A DNA stretch of 64,000 bases from Pseudomonas cremoricolorata (GTDB lineage: Bacteria; Pseudomonadota; Gammaproteobacteria; Pseudomonadales; Pseudomonadaceae), in NCBI RefSeq assembly GCF_000759535.1, contig NZ_CP009455.1, positions 1,674,001 through 1,738,000 on the forward strand, read 5' to 3'. Both the position numbers and the translations under genes were made by a program. Under the pieces are notes generated by a model that was not told where the DNA came from, did no database searches, and saw nothing but the letters and a program-made list of their open reading frames with translations. Below, in pieces: positions 20,609-27,440 of the stretch (its first letter is position 1; the number at the start of each line of letters is the position of its first letter).

Positions 20609-20739
20609 GGGCGGCGCCTGACGGCTTCTGGCGCTCGACCTGCCTCAATACGGTTCGAGCCTGCCCAGTAGAGCCATTGCCTTGTTGGCTTCAATAGCGC
20701 GCCTTTAGAATGGCCGGCCCTCGCAAGGCAGGAAACACC

Positions 20740-21705
20740 ATGTGGTTCATGAATAAAAAAACGCTCAGTGCCGAGCAGGCGACGGCGCTCCATGAGCAGG
20801 CCTGGGCAGCGTTTCGCGAGCAGGATCTGGACACCGCGCAGGAGTGCTTCCAGACCCTTGCCAAGGCGTGTCCCGCCGACGCACGCTGGATGAATGGCGT
20901 TGGCGCGGTGAGCCTGGCACGTGACGATCGCGCCGATGCCCGCCGACACTTCCAGAAGGCCGCCGATCTTGATTATCCCGGCAGCCACTACAACCTCGGC
21001 GTCATGGCCTACCAGGACGGTAATCACGACGTCGCCCGCCGACACTTTCTTAGGGCTGCCGAGCACGATTATCCAGGCAGCCACTACAACCTCGCGACCA
21101 TGGCCTTCCAGGAGGGTGATCACGACACCGCCCGCCAATATTTCCAGCAAGCCGCCGAGTATGACTGTCCCCGCAGCCACTTCTACCTTGGCAGCATGGC
21201 CTACCAGAATGGCGATCACGATGCCGCCGTCGAGCACCTCAACAACGCCGTGCGCCACGATCATCCGGAGGCGCTGAACCTGCTCGGCGACGTCCATCTG
21301 CATGCCGAGCGCTATCGCCCGGCCGAGCAGGCCTACCGGCGCGCGGCCGAGTTGGGCCATGTCGACGGCTACAACAATCTTGGCCTTCTGTACTTGCAGC
21401 TCGAAGACTATGAGCAGGCCAAGCAGGCGCTGTTGCAGGCCCTGCAATCCGACCACGTCTATGCCCAGCACAACCTGGCTGTGGCCTATCACCGCCTGGG
21501 CGAACTCGAGCAGGCCGAGCGCTGGTACCTGATCTCCTTCTCTCAGCACGGCAACCTGCAGTCGCTGGAGAACCTTGGGCACGTGTATGGCGACAGTGGG
21601 CGTGAGGTCGAGGGCCAGGCGCTGGTCGCGGCCTCCGACAAGCTCTACGAGGATCAGCCTCTGAACGATTACGAGCAGGCGTTGATCGACCGGTTGCTGG
21701 CCTGA
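20740..21705 (+). CDS. Tetratricopeptide/SEL1-like repeat protein
   Basis: 321-residue protein made of about eight helical repeats of 34-36 residues. The first three or four are very alike (DYPGSHYNLGVMAYQDGNHD and variants), so they arose by recent duplication. The ATG at 20740 follows AGGAAACACC. No signal peptide or membrane segment is seen. Such proteins scaffold protein complexes and the partner is unknown. It lies next to the two glycosyltransferases and directly before the tRNA island. Confidence 0.82.
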   Translation: MWFMNKKTLSAEQATALHEQAWAAFREQDLDTAQECFQTLAKACPADARWMNGVGAVSLARDDRADARRHFQKAADLDYPGSHYNLGVMAYQDGNHDVARRHFLRAAEHDYPGSHYNLATMAFQEGDHDTARQYFQQAAEYDCPRSHFYLGSMAYQNGDHDAAVEHLNNAVRHDHPEALNLLGDVHLHAERYRPAEQAYRRAAELGHVDGYNNLGLLYLQLEDYEQAKQALLQALQSDHVYAQHNLAVAYHRLGELEQAERWYLISFSQHGNLQSLENLGHVYGDSGREVEGQALVAASDKLYEDQPLNDYEQALIDRLLA

Positions 21706-21734
21706 GGACAGTATCTGGCGTGTTTGTCCCAGAA

Positions 21735-21764
21735 ACACAAAAGCCGCGCTTATGCGCGGCTTTG
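21735..21764. terminator. Bidirectional terminator after the TPR gene
   Basis: A stem GCCGCGC/GCGCGGC with a 4-nt loop has A-rich sequence before and CTTT after. On the plus strand it ends the TPR gene. On the minus strand it originally ended the tRNA gene. Confidence 0.7.
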
Positions 21765-21768
21765 ACGT

Positions 21769-21814
21769 TGGTGGGCCCACACGGACTCGAACCGTGGACC
21801 AAAGGATTATGAGT
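21769..21814 (-). pseudogene. tRNA-Ile2(CAT) 3' fragment
   Basis: 46 nt covering the anticodon loop, T-arm, acceptor 3' strand and CCA. The 5' half is missing, replaced by island DNA. It cannot make a tRNA. Confidence 0.9.
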
Positions 21815-22178: not shown

Positions 22179-24461
22179 CTAGGGTAGGTACCATTCTACC
22201 ATGTTCCTAATGTATGTTGGAGCTTGAGCTATGGTGCTTTTGAAAGAGATGTCTGATTCGGAAATGGAGCATATGTATGGTGTAAGTTCTGCGACTTCTT
22301 CAGGTGGAAATCCATATCGCATCAATAACATGTGCATCGCATCATTTGTACCAAATCGTAATAGTTCAATCATTTTGTCTGATCGATTGTCGTTGCTTAT
22401 GTTCTTATAAATTTTAAATGATCCGACAAAAGTGTCAGAAAGCGAGAAAGAAATTACTTGATCCAAGTAGTCGTAAGTATCGAAAACGATGGCGTCGTAA
22501 CTTACTTGCTTTGCTGGAGTGCCTTTTTCGTAAATTGAGTATGATCTTTTTAAATTGCTGTCAGGCAGTTTGTTTGCCGGTTGCGAAAATTCTGCATCTC
22601 CTGCTCCTTTATATGCACGGCGAGAAATGCGGCTGTAGCGATTGCCGACGATTTCTTTGAAAGATATGCCTTGGAAGGTTTGAAGCATTATTCCAATTGC
22701 TGTCTTAAATACAGCTAGTTCTCCTTCATGTAGCGAGCGCCCTAATGCTCCTTCGTATATCGCCCTAAAATATTCTATAAGTTTTATTCGAGTGTCGCGA
22801 TTGACATCGCCGCGCAGTACATCTTTAAGGTGTTCGCTCCCACTGTAAAGTATGTCTAGTATATTCGCCGCCGCCTCAAGAACTTCTACAGACGAAAGGC
22901 GTTCAATTTTAGATCTCGGCAGATGCAGTTCGTCGTCAAATGTTTCGTCCTTAATCGCTTTCAAAAGCTCGGCGGAGTCGCCATTTTCATCATATGGCAA
23001 GTCAATAACGGATTTCTCGTTTAGTCTAAAGTTCTGATTTATTCGTTCAGTAAAAAGCTTAGGATTCTTGGTAAATACATATCCAAAGTCAAATTTTGCC
23101 TTATCGGAGAGCCGACCTGCTCTACCTATGAGATTCTTAAATGATAAGGATTTTTCCTCATCTCCATCACCTTGGAATCGCATATTGTCAAGCCATACGA
23201 TATCAAAGGGCATGTTGACCCCTTGTGCCAATGTGCTAGTAGCAAAGCAAATTTTTGCGTACCCAGAGCGAATGAAGTTCTCAACCATAAATCTCACCTC
23301 CAATGGAACAGAGCCGTGGTGAATCACAACTCCCTTCTTTAGAAGCTCAACCATTCTTGAGCGATGATCGTCTTGGTTTGCGCCAAGAAGGACTTGTACA
23401 GACTCAATTATTTCTTTAGCTAGAGGTTCGGAAATAATAGGAAAATTTTCTATGTATTTTTCGTGTCCGTCTAGAAACTTGCCGTTGTAAATAGATGCTT
23501 TAGAGATATATATTAATATAGAATGCTTGCCATTGAAGGCGAATTTGTTAAATCCATCTTTGAGTTCAACGCATTCTCGAATTCGATAACCTTTCTCTTC
23601 AAACGGCGAGAATATATAGTCGCGCCCATTATTATGTTGAAAAACGCAGACCTTACCCACTGTGCCATGTGTATAAGATCTGGCATAACCACTGTCGCTA
23701 GAAATTCCATGTTTTTTAAACTGAGCGTCTGGATTGTCTACGAACGGGTGTGCAAAGATTAGTTTTGCACTCGGAAAAGCTTTTTGAATACGTCGAACTA
23801 CTACGTCAAAGATAATCCCGCGAGATTTGTCTTCTGAGACATGCGCTTCGTCAAAGAAAAATGTTCTAATCTCAAGTTTTGCTGATGATACGAAAAGGTC
23901 CCTTGCTCTCTCTGGTGTAAGGACGAATATCCGCCTTAGATTTCTACTTGTGAAGACGACGTCAATGAAAGGAGTGATCATCACTCCTTTTATACCCTGA
24001 AACCTGTCTTTCATTGTATTTATGTATTCGGCGATCAAAGCCCGAGACGGCACAACAACAACCGCGTCTCCACTCTGTTCCGCAATGAAGTCACGTATAG
24101 AATAAGACTTGCCTGCGCTTGTCGGAGCAGAAATAGAAATAAATTGTTTTTTATCAACTGCACGTCTTACACTCGCCTGGACCGGAGTCAGATATCTTCC
24201 ATAGGCTTTATTATGAGCTTCTCCGATAGAGCTTAAAAGTAACGAATAAAGGTTGTCTGGATTGGATATTTTATAGAACAATCCAAGTGCAGAGATGATT
24301 TTCTCCTCTAGACTGGCAAAGATTTCTGGGTGAAAAATTCGAAAGTAAGATAATGTTTCAAGGATGTCCGAGCTAATAGGACCCTGTAAATGAAGGTGCT
24401 CAAAAACGTTAGCGAGGTCTGAGAGGGGGTCAAGAGTTTCTTTTATTTTTCTAGCTTTCAT
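22179..24461 (-). CDS. hamB: Hachiman helicase HamB (Ski2-like DEAH box)
   Basis: Superfamily 2 helicase of 760 residues. In Hachiman defence HamB controls the HamA nuclease in response to aberrant DNA. Motifs in order: Q-like LTPVQASV (91-98), Walker A APTSAGKS (112-119), VVPSRALIAE (136-145), VLTPERARDL (180-189), DEAH (204-207), VVIHHGSVPLEVR (378-390), FATSTLAQGVNMPFD (406-420) and motif VI NLIGRAGRLSD (443-453). All catalytic motifs are intact. The last 300 residues match nothing I know. The ATG overlaps the end of hamA by 11 nt, implying translational coupling. The gene is far more AT-rich than the host. Confidence 0.85.
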   Translation of the reverse strand: MKARKIKETLDPLSDLANVFEHLHLQGPISSDILETLSYFRIFHPEIFASLEEKIISALGLFYKISNPDNLYSLLLSSIGEAHNKAYGRYLTPVQASVRRAVDKKQFISISAPTSAGKSYSIRDFIAEQSGDAVVVVPSRALIAEYINTMKDRFQGIKGVMITPFIDVVFTSRNLRRIFVLTPERARDLFVSSAKLEIRTFFFDEAHVSEDKSRGIIFDVVVRRIQKAFPSAKLIFAHPFVDNPDAQFKKHGISSDSGYARSYTHGTVGKVCVFQHNNGRDYIFSPFEEKGYRIRECVELKDGFNKFAFNGKHSILIYISKASIYNGKFLDGHEKYIENFPIISEPLAKEIIESVQVLLGANQDDHRSRMVELLKKGVVIHHGSVPLEVRFMVENFIRSGYAKICFATSTLAQGVNMPFDIVWLDNMRFQGDGDEEKSLSFKNLIGRAGRLSDKAKFDFGYVFTKNPKLFTERINQNFRLNEKSVIDLPYDENGDSAELLKAIKDETFDDELHLPRSKIERLSSVEVLEAAANILDILYSGSEHLKDVLRGDVNRDTRIKLIEYFRAIYEGALGRSLHEGELAVFKTAIGIMLQTFQGISFKEIVGNRYSRISRRAYKGAGDAEFSQPANKLPDSNLKRSYSIYEKGTPAKQVSYDAIVFDTYDYLDQVISFSLSDTFVGSFKIYKNISNDNRSDKMIELLRFGTNDAMHMLLMRYGFPPEEVAELTPYICSISESDISFKSTIAQAPTYIRNMVEWYLP

Positions 24462-25185
24462 GAGTTACACCTACCATATACACAAAGCTGACCTTTTTCT
24501 CGGACGCAAACTCAATAGCCCTCTGTAACGCATTTTTGTATATTGTTAGAGGCTCTTTTGCATTTACGGAAAACGCTGCAATAATTCCATGTAAGTTATC
24601 ATTTAAATTTTTAATGCTTGCTGGAGAGGCTAGGCTTGTTAGGTGTACCCAATCTCGCTTGTGTTTCTTCGCGACAAGAAATTCGCTAGCTTGGTCCAGG
24701 GCAATACCATAGGTAGTGCTATTTGAGGAGTATTTAGCTTCGCCGAAATTTATATGATCAGCGGTGCAAACGCTATGGAAGTCAAATCCCTCGTTTTGCT
24801 TTGCTTGTGGCTTCCATAACTCCGCTATCGGGATAAGTGTGTGACTAAGTAATAGTTCTAAGGATTTAGCCGCACCCATGGATACCATAAGTTCGCCAAA
24901 ATCTTCTACAATACTACCGGCTGACTCTGCTGCTTTGAAGATTTTGATGAGTAATTCGGACGTTTCTTGAACGGTAAATTCGTATGCCTCTCTGGCTCCG
25001 ATATCTAGATCCACCATCCAAGAGGTATCAACAATAGAAGAAGTAAGCATTTTTGATATCTGTGATATCTGCGTAACATGGACATGGCAGATCTTAACAA
25101 ACTGCATTTCTGTCGAGTTAAGAATCTCAGTGAACTCGCATCCCCAAGATAAATCGGGGATCACCCTCCCATAACTTACAGACAT
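24451..25185 (-). CDS. hamA: Hachiman nuclease HamA (DUF1837)
   Basis: 244-residue protein with the DUF1837 layout. A conserved helix (EDFGELMVSMGAAKSLELLL, about 94-113) is followed by the PD-(D/E)XK-type core with Asp135 in EGFDFH and Glu149-Ala-Lys151 in NFGEAKYS. In characterised Hachiman systems this core is a DNA nuclease held inactive by HamB until infection. The start at 25185 has GAGG seven bases upstream. Gene order hamA-hamB, overlap and AT-rich composition all fit Hachiman. The E. coli pair AbpA-AbpB is related. Assignment rests on motifs and gene pairing. Confidence 0.82.
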   Translation of the reverse strand: MSVSYGRVIPDLSWGCEFTEILNSTEMQFVKICHVHVTQISQISKMLTSSIVDTSWMVDLDIGAREAYEFTVQETSELLIKIFKAAESAGSIVEDFGELMVSMGAAKSLELLLSHTLIPIAELWKPQAKQNEGFDFHSVCTADHINFGEAKYSSNSTTYGIALDQASEFLVAKKHKRDWVHLTSLASPASIKNLNDNLHGIIAAFSVNAKEPLTIYKNALQRAIEFASEKKVSFVYMVGVTHES

Positions 25186-26088
25186 ACGGATACCTCAGAG
25201 GCCCGAGCCCTAAAGACAGTCTGTCTTGCTGCTGATAGTTTAATTGGTTGCGATGAGCTGCAATGTCGATGGCAAATCTTCTTGCTGAACTGTTCGTGAA
25301 GAGCAGTACGCAATATTGACACATTTTTGTAATCTATCGCCTGTGGCGAGTCGAATGAGGTGATAAAAGATACAGCCGGAGTGGACCGGCTCAGCGTTTG
25401 CAGAGATGGGGTTATAACAGGGGGGAAGTCCATTTCTCAACCTTTCGGGGAGCCTGTGTCGTCCAGATCATAACGAAATCTAGCGTAAGTCCACTATGGT
25501 TTCGTCGTACTTTTGCCATGCCTTTGCGACGAATGCGCCGTGGGAGTGGGCAAGCGGTCGCTAGCTGACAGGCAGGAGGTAGCACCGATTCCTAGGCGCC
25601 AGCTTTGTGATCCTGAAATAAGCCCTGCAAGAGCCAGCGCAAGGTGTCACCACGATGGCCGCTAGCCAGCAGTCCAATCCGGACGGTAGGGCTATTGATG
25701 GGCATATAGGGCTAACCGTGCGCTGTATGACGAAGCACCGTCGCTTCGCCTATCCTGCAATAGCCCACTCAATTGACGTATCTTCGTCATGACGAACGGG
25801 ACTTGATAGCAGGCAGCGGCCGATCGGCTTAACCCTATACATCGTATCAGCGACTAAAAGATACAGCTGGTAGAGCACTCCCTAATGGGGGGGGGGCAGC
25901 TTCCGGGCATCAAGGGGTGAGTTGCTTCAGGTGCTCACCCGTTAGGTGCCCACGCAAGGCGGGCAGTCGATAATCGACAAACTTTGAACCATTTCAAATT
26001 GTGGCCCATGGATGAGCCTGTTGCGAATGGCAATAGTAATCCATTGCCGCATGGGAAACTCTCAGACTTACTCACTCTTTCCTACAGG
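25186..26088. other. Gene-poor, palindrome-rich part of the island
   Basis: About 0.9 kb between hamA and the insertion sequence. It has hairpins at 25374-25391 (AGCCGG/CCGGCT) and 25731-25748 (CGAAGC/GCTTCG), palindromes at 25783-25796 (TTCGTCATGACGAA) and 25966-25978 (GTCGATAATCGAC), an inverted repeat at 25983-25998 (TTTGAA/TTCAAA) and a run of ten G at 25877-25886. The 16-bp word TAAAAGATACAGCYGG occurs at 25364 and 25855. The only plausible frame is a 45-codon ORF at 25655-25792, which I do not call. It may be an integration or replication control region, or decayed DNA. Confidence 0.5.
25213..25227. promoter_or_regulatory. Palindrome upstream of hamA
   Basis: AAGACAGTCTGTCTT has perfect 7-bp arms around one base and ends 28 bp before the hamA start. 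Further upstream the minus strand reads TTGCAG and then AAACTA 16 bp later, a possible weak promoter. The palindrome would then lie over the transcription start as an operator. Confidence 0.4.
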
Positions 26089-26151
26089 TGTAGTGGTCTA
26101 ATAAAACCGGACACCCATTTAGGCGAGAATGCTCGCACAGAGAGGTGTCTG

Positions 26152-27313
<1,162 letters not shown>

Positions 27314-27323
27314 CCACTACACG

Positions 27324-27409
27324 CCAGAAACACAAAAGCCGCGCATTTGCGCGGCTTTGAGTATGGTGGGCCCACACGGACTCGAACCGTGGACCAAAGG
27401 ATTATGAGT
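27324..27409. repeat. Right island-end repeat (attR)
   Basis: Partner of the repeat at 21729-21814, same length, 81 of 86 positions identical. It holds a terminator hairpin (GCCGCGC/GCGCGGC) and the 3' 46 nt of the intact tRNA. The differences (hairpin loop and the three bases before CCA) show that this copy came in with the island and is not a fresh duplicate. Confidence 0.88.
27330..27359 (-). terminator. Terminator of the tRNA gene
   Basis: On the minus strand the GC-rich stem GCCGCGC/GCGCGGC is followed by TTTTGTGTTT. It lies directly downstream of the tRNA. Confidence 0.75.
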
Positions 27410-27440
27410 CCTCTGCTCTAACCAACTGAGCTATAGGCCC
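27364..27440 (-). tRNA. tRNA-Ile2 (CAT anticodon, lysidine type)
   Basis: 77 nt with encoded CCA. It folds as a full cloverleaf: acceptor GGGCCTA/TGGGCCC, D-arm GCTC/GAGC, anticodon stem GAGGA/TCCTT with a final G-like mismatch, loop CTCATAA, T-arm CACGG/CCGTG. The anticodon is CAT. The pairs C4-G69 and C5-G68 are the identity elements that TilS uses in tRNA-Ile2, so this reads AUA codons after lysidine modification and is not the elongator Met tRNA, although automatic annotation often says Met. It is the integration site of the island. Confidence 0.88.

Follow-up and report, generated by a model that had tools for sequence, protein, structure and literature searches.

Hachiman anti-phage systems pair HamA with a Ski2-type helicase, HamB, the hamA gene being directly followed by hamB. 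In E. coli Hachiman, defence was abolished when either HamA residues E138/K140 or the helicase site of HamB were mutated (PMC12278908). A D-GEXK motif is named as required in HamA, and virtually all protease-fused HamA proteins are reported to be devoid of it (PMC12799240). In a related system, AbpAB (PDB 8zue), the AbpA protein carries an additional Cap4-like nuclease at its N terminus, and its HamA site is inactivated (PMC12278908). Here we analyze a hamA-like and a hamB-like gene in a window of 64,000 nucleotides from Pseudomonas cremoricolorata (contig NZ_CP009455.1, positions 1,674,001 to 1,738,000), which a sequence-only reading, made by a model with no database searches, had described as a compact Hachiman-type pair in an AT-rich island. 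Computation establishes the gene pair, the identity of the helicase, a HamA fold with a conserved catalytic motif, the linkage of the two genes and their mobile setting, and we consider it very probable that these genes encode a Hachiman (HamA-HamB) anti-phage system, divergent yet to all appearances intact, on a small integrase-less island at a tRNA-Met gene. No paper on Hachiman-like, HamA-like, HamB-like or HamAB-like variants, or on PDC-M23 together with PADLOC, was found in the open-licence literature.

Both open reading frames (ORFs) were found where the sequence-only reading had placed them, with the lengths and the overlap it had given (Table 1). The window helicase matches PADLOC HamB with an E value of 2.9e-56. 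Alignments were built from 29 of the 120 helicase relatives listed (see below) plus that of Luteimonas gilva (A5), and from 13 of the 20 other HamB proteins read (A6); a profile-profile match to other HamB covers residues 87-739, nearly the full length, at E 6.8e-48, so that the 300-residue C-terminal part, for which the sequence-only reading could name no match, does have a counterpart in known HamB. The helicase motifs it had recognized are all present (APTSAGKS at residues 112-119, DEAH at 204-207 and GRAGR at 446-450), as expected of a Ski2-type HamB. A search for relatives returned 3117 helicases at E <= 1e-10, 120 of them listed. Among those listed, a strict Walker A motif is found in 117, with a one-letter variant in 2 of the remaining 3, and motif VI reads GRAGR or GRSGR in 119. 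Motif II is DEAH, as in the window, in 15 and DEAQ in 105; DEAQ was rejected as a mark of the branch, being present in 2 of the 20 other HamB. PADLOC also returned a helicase match weaker than HamB, to PDC-M23B (E 1.2e-22); PDC-M23A, the small partner in PADLOC PDC-M23, gave no match, so the pair is not assigned to PDC-M23.

In the AlphaFold2 (AF2) model five helices lie within residues 2-87, and the predicted architecture is an N-terminal helical bundle (about residues 1-88) followed by two RecA domains and a mostly helical C-terminal part. Structure matches to this model begin at residue 11 for 8zue_B, at 79-82 for Hel308 and at 24-53 for some other helicase rows, and the PADLOC HamB matches of relatives begin as early as residues 11-18. 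As in Hachiman, an N-terminal helical bundle (NAH) thus precedes the first RecA domain in the model. The window HamB has 760 residues compared with 1174 in the ECOR31 chain, and it probably lacks the C-terminal OB-like barrel of ECOR31 HamB, none being apparent in its predicted secondary structure. Its best PDB sequence match is chain B of 9wh1/9whk/9whu, deposited as "DNA polymerase theta (Helicase domain only)". Chain A of these entries, which the HamA profile matches, bears the name Anti-bacteriophage protein A/HamA C-terminal domain protein; chain B appears to be a HamB/AbpB partner that was given a misleading name.

HamAB pairs of the same genus match PADLOC profiles for HamA (PDLC00154/00156/00159/00160/00168) and HamB (PDLC00176/00185/00199). 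They resemble the window pair in gene order and in a HamB that is alignable over most of its length, but the window branch is distinct from them: in a tree of 18 members and 20 other HamB it forms one separate clade, whose stem is long (3.28 changes per column). The tree had no outgroup and the tool warned of many long branches; it therefore shows one clade, not its place or root. Another same-genus pair type (L028:1825-5100, L029, L032 and L033) has HamA proteins of 264-269 amino acids. The HamA of L028 matches PADLOC HamA weakly (best E 1.7e-6), its 826-amino-acid HamB reaches at most 232 bits, and the HamB proteins of these four loci form another long-stemmed clade.

The small protein carries the D-GEXK catalytic motif (D135 ... 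G148-E149-A150-K151), and E149 and K151 are presumed to be the counterparts of E138 and K140 of ECOR31 HamA. The protease-fused HamA proteins, virtually all of which are reported to lack this motif (PMC12799240), differ from it in this respect. It also differs from AbpA in being 244 amino acids long with nothing fused and with the HamA active-site motif intact, so the pair is not of the AbpAB type. A family search returned 461 relatives at E <= 0.01, 120 of which were listed; D135, E149, A150 and K151, the residues picked out by the sequence-only reading, do not vary among the 121 sequences aligned (the query and its listed relatives), and neither do H137, G148, C33 and C140. H181 is kept in 120 of the 121 and C16 in 119. 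The (near-)invariant C16, C33 and C140 are a further difference of the branch from ECOR31 HamA; these cysteines may form a metal or disulphide site in the predicted nuclease.

The relationship to HamA was examined by profile-profile alignment with hhalign. Alignment A1 comprised 27 sequences (26 of the 120 listed relatives taken in) and A2 comprised 12 same-genus HamA proteins, drawn from 20 HamA loci fetched out of 45 matches. Compared with A2, A1 gave a P value of 1.6e-4 and a probability of 50%, and G97-E98, D135, G148, E149 and K151 were each aligned with an identical HamA residue; within A2, the HamA positions that correspond to E98, D135, G148, E149 and K151 do not vary. A larger alignment, A7, of 35 sequences with 11 relatives and 23 rows of a sister family described below, gave P 1.7e-5 and a probability of 78%. 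The scores were 37.6 (A1) and 43.8 (A7). Among the 60 column-shuffled controls run for each, the highest scores were 22.3 and 20.3, respectively, and reversing the alignment gave 14.4 and 13.8. Re-examination of the Foldseek candidates by VIA-align 2 did identify HamA, giving the small protein a HamA-type fold, as in Hachiman; the alignment spans residues 8-244. Unlike HamA of E. coli ECOR31 (PDB 8vx9 and related), the window protein is missed by HamA profiles, and it shows 8% identity in the structural alignment.

The sister family emerged from a distant locus (L077, genome G873) reached by a phylum-wide helicase search; the small protein encoded there scores 160 bits against the family profile. 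Used as a query, this protein found 651 relatives at E <= 0.01, which may overlap the 461; they are proteins of 220-249 amino acids from Pseudoalteromonas, Vibrio, Shewanella and others. The window protein is 36% identical to sister protein P0293 (208 residues, E 7e-38) and 35% identical to that of L077 (200 residues, E 3e-31), and in the one sister locus read the small gene is paired with a related, broken helicase gene. All 120 listed sister proteins show the pattern GFDFH...GE[AS]K, 29 of the 120 carry a precomputed PF08878.17 domain, compared with none of the 120 listed in the window branch, and some are named "Anti-bacteriophage protein A/HamA C-terminal domain". The sister family alone aligns to HamA by hhalign with P 4.1e-4. 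P0293 matches the local PF08878.16 at E 8.4e-5, just under the cut-off, and 1 of 10 sister proteins matches PADLOC HamA (E 0.0014). In the 23 aligned sister rows C16 and C33 are absent, C140 is found in 2 and H181 in 1. The assignment of the pair to Hachiman is thus upheld by HamB profiles, the near full-length HamB profile-profile match, the HamA-fold match, the HamA profile-profile comparison with its controls, and a sister family that is partly labelled as HamA in Pfam.

Several results weigh against a HamA identity. Searches of Pfam, PADLOC and NCBIfam to E 1 returned no HamA or DUF1837 match for the 244-amino-acid protein, and searches of PDB sequences with the single sequence and with the alignment returned no HamA. 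The sequence-only reading had called the protein DUF1837-type, a label that no profile searched supports, and had named the lack of a significant DUF1837 match as a result that would refute it; taken literally, that refutation has therefore occurred. The curated cut-offs of Pfam HamA (PF08878) and PADLOC HamA are not reached by this protein, the profiles being annotation models rather than a biological definition. With A7, D135 and the HamA aspartate are three residues out of register, although E149 and K151 remain aligned. The hhalign probabilities of 50-78% are short of about 100, and comparison of the family with a 3-sequence HamA group (A3) and with 5 AbpA-like fusions (A4) gave nothing significant. 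Foldseek with the HamA model found no PDB match at E <= 0.001, all rows being insignificant, and residues 126-133 of that model, just before D135, have a predicted local distance difference test (pLDDT) value below 50. The PF08878.17 label is poorly reproduced, with 1 of 6 sister proteins matching the local PF08878.16, below the cut-off; the other five labelled.17, and L077, gave no HamA match in it.

The small protein could be an unrelated PD-(D/E)XK nuclease that joined a HamB-type helicase independently, its likeness to HamA being convergent. The lack of a direct HamA profile match and the weak Foldseek result are in keeping with such an origin, and PD-(D/E)XK cores are widespread. We nevertheless regard it as very improbable: the VIA-align alignment covers nearly the whole protein, beyond the nuclease core, the hhalign alignment is collinear and exceeds its controls, the sister family extends into Pfam HamA, and the partner is a HamB. 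Divergence within Hachiman, which the sequence-only reading had suggested, is supported instead, because the window protein has no HamA match in Pfam, PADLOC or NCBIfam and four other branch members have none in PADLOC, while all 6 same-genus HamA controls match PADLOC HamA (five at E <= 2.2e-100 and one, divergent, at 1.7e-6); the long-stemmed HamB clade agrees. These controls had been retrieved with PF08878 and are not an unbiased sample. The PF08878 search of the window's own genome was empty, and the identical search was positive in 40 of 298 same-genus genomes. The suggestion that HamA is unusually short did not hold. Same-genus HamA proteins have 253-264 amino acids and the sister family 220-249, PADLOC HamA models go down to 257 positions, and 4 of the 20 other HamB read have 705-730 amino acids; compactness was accordingly rejected as a special feature of the pair.

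The small gene lies directly before the helicase gene, as in Hachiman, with the ORFs overlapping, in all four loci read: the window, L025 (genome G060 of the same genus), L001 (Luteimonas gilva) and L077. The overlap is 11 nucleotides in L025, 8 in L077 and, according to which start codon is taken, up to 20 in L001. An indirect sign of linkage is that 32 of the 120 listed small proteins share an exact longest-contig size with a listed helicase; this count is confined to the 120 entries listed for each protein, out of 461 and 3117 relatives, respectively, and sizes can agree by coincidence (3253 occurs twice). Given 461 and 3117 relatives and the same order and overlap in four loci, the pairing is far beyond chance. 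The 11-nucleotide overlap in the window likely reflects translational coupling.

The branch is sparsely distributed. It was found in 2 of 298 same-genus genomes (the window's own and G060), in the own genome alone of 369 in a class-wide search, in the own genome and the distant locus of G873 in a phylum-wide helicase search (398 genomes, E <= 1e-60), and in one relative, L. gilva, in a scan of named genomes. Such patchiness bears on whether the helicase and nuclease might serve a role other than phage defence, for instance in DNA repair or in keeping plasmids and other mobile DNA in check. HamB does resemble the repair helicases Hel308 and Pol theta helicase, no branch member turned up in 72,556 plasmid records, 50,697 phage records and one viral-contig scan, and neither a defence assay nor a nuclease measurement on any branch member came to light, which also counts against Hachiman. 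We consider another role unlikely, since a housekeeping repair pair would hardly occur so patchily, or in an island at a site where two relatives have defence-type genes (see below), and since the small protein's fold and motif, those of HamA, suggest the Hachiman effector.

The island itself is as AT-rich as the sequence-only reading had it, with a GC content of 0.40-0.42 over 22-25 kb compared with about 0.60-0.66 in most flanking kilobases. The repeats it had reported are real, direct, 86 nucleotides each and 94% identical, and the right copy overlaps the 3' part of the intact tRNA-Met gene (Table 1). Direct repeats at the 3' part of a tRNA gene are the usual footprint of site-specific integration. 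The pair had been said to stand alone between the repeats, which is correct apart from one IS3-type element; this element ends at the right repeat, is the sole full copy in the genome, and is no component of the defence pair. A 331-amino-acid TPR protein lies just outside the island at 20710-21705 (+) and contains a 96-nucleotide repeat unit (72% between two copies).

Table 1. Features of the island and the hamA-hamB pair (positions are those of the window)
Feature	Position	Strand	Description
hamA-like gene	24451..25185	-	244 amino acids; predicted PD-(D/E)XK nuclease; core D135, E149, K151 in NEGFDFH...FGEAK
hamB-like gene	22179..24461	-	760 amino acids; Ski2-type superfamily 2 (SF2) helicase; from ORF, PADLOC HamB, profile-profile match, AF2 model and structure matches
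hamA end/hamB start overlap	24451..24461	-	11 nucleotides
tRNA-Met (CAT) gene	27364..27440	-	Intact; presumed integration site; ARAGORN; Rfam RF00005 at 27367-27440
Right island repeat	27324..27409	-	tRNA 3' part and downstream hairpin; repeat family D1
Left island repeat	21729..21814	-	Displaced tRNA 3' part and terminator-like hairpin; 94% identical to right copy
IS3-type insertion sequence	26088..27322	+	rve transposase; 27-nucleotide imperfect terminal inverted repeats

No integrase was found within the island, and none of the 11 tyrosine-recombinase (PF00589) matches of the genome falls in the window. The locus could accordingly be a decayed or silent remnant of a lost integrative element, the more so as the IS3-type element ends at the right repeat, a promoter scan found 7 sites compared with a mean of 8.7 in shuffles, that is, no excess, and hamB of G873 is broken into two ORFs with stops between them (L077:2218-4535) beside a whole HamA-like ORF. 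The last point also weighs against an intact system. Decay seems decidedly unlikely to us for the window itself, where neither ORF is truncated and the motifs of both are intact; in addition, the two-gene stretch is kept at 71% DNA identity in G060, where no flanking part of the island aligns.

Searching 38 genomes with the tRNA region led to five others that were examined further. In three of these (G001, G011 and G014) a second copy of the repeat frames islands of about 15.7, 47 and 5.6 kb, respectively. Annotation covered the islands of G001 and G014. The G001 island (L068:2111-15997) encodes a tyrosine integrase, an N6-methylase and a PADLOC SoFic match, and that of G014 (L067:810-4441) has matches to the PADLOC candidates PDC-S39 and PDC-S67; a 1291-amino-acid CHAT-domain protein is also among the cargo of these two islands. 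The insert in G011 (L069-L071, G011:C1, about 4031000-4079500) is bounded by the tRNA-Met repeats. G023 and G024 have one repeat copy within the 6.5-6.7 kb fetched and are, as far as seen, empty sites. The PADLOC-type genes in G001 and G014 indicate that the site takes defence-type cargo in 2 of the 5 genomes, and it is likely a defence hotspot.

By analogy with known Hachiman, the two proteins would form a complex that responds to DNA damage, acts as a DNase and brings about abortive infection. If the pair works like its E. coli counterpart (PMC12278908), the N-terminal helical bundle of HamB would be the docking site for HamA, which would stay inactive as long as HamB scans DNA. Phage replication, recombination or DNA damage would supply a free 3' end of single-stranded DNA; once this end has entered HamB, the RecA2 and N-terminal domains would move on ATP hydrolysis, and HamA, so switched on, would degrade phage and host DNA and end the infection. 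Within this framework the branch might be switched or aimed differently, by a metal- or redox-dependent HamA switch or by another activating DNA structure. This is suggested by the HamA cysteines and H181, which are mostly absent from the sister family, and by a short HamB without an apparent OB-like barrel; we think it improbable, though deserving of some weight.

The novelty of the Hachiman pair described here is a branch and its absence from the libraries tested, not a new mechanism. Hachiman is counted by profile searches; if the branch is genuine, it escapes HamA profiles such as those tested. None of the 120 relatives listed, of 461 at E <= 0.01, carries a precomputed Pfam domain, and the sister family adds 651. 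The branch supplies a seed alignment for a new HamA profile, and a small natural HamAB of 244 and 760 amino acids would be useful for asking what portions of E. coli HamB (1174 residues) are required.
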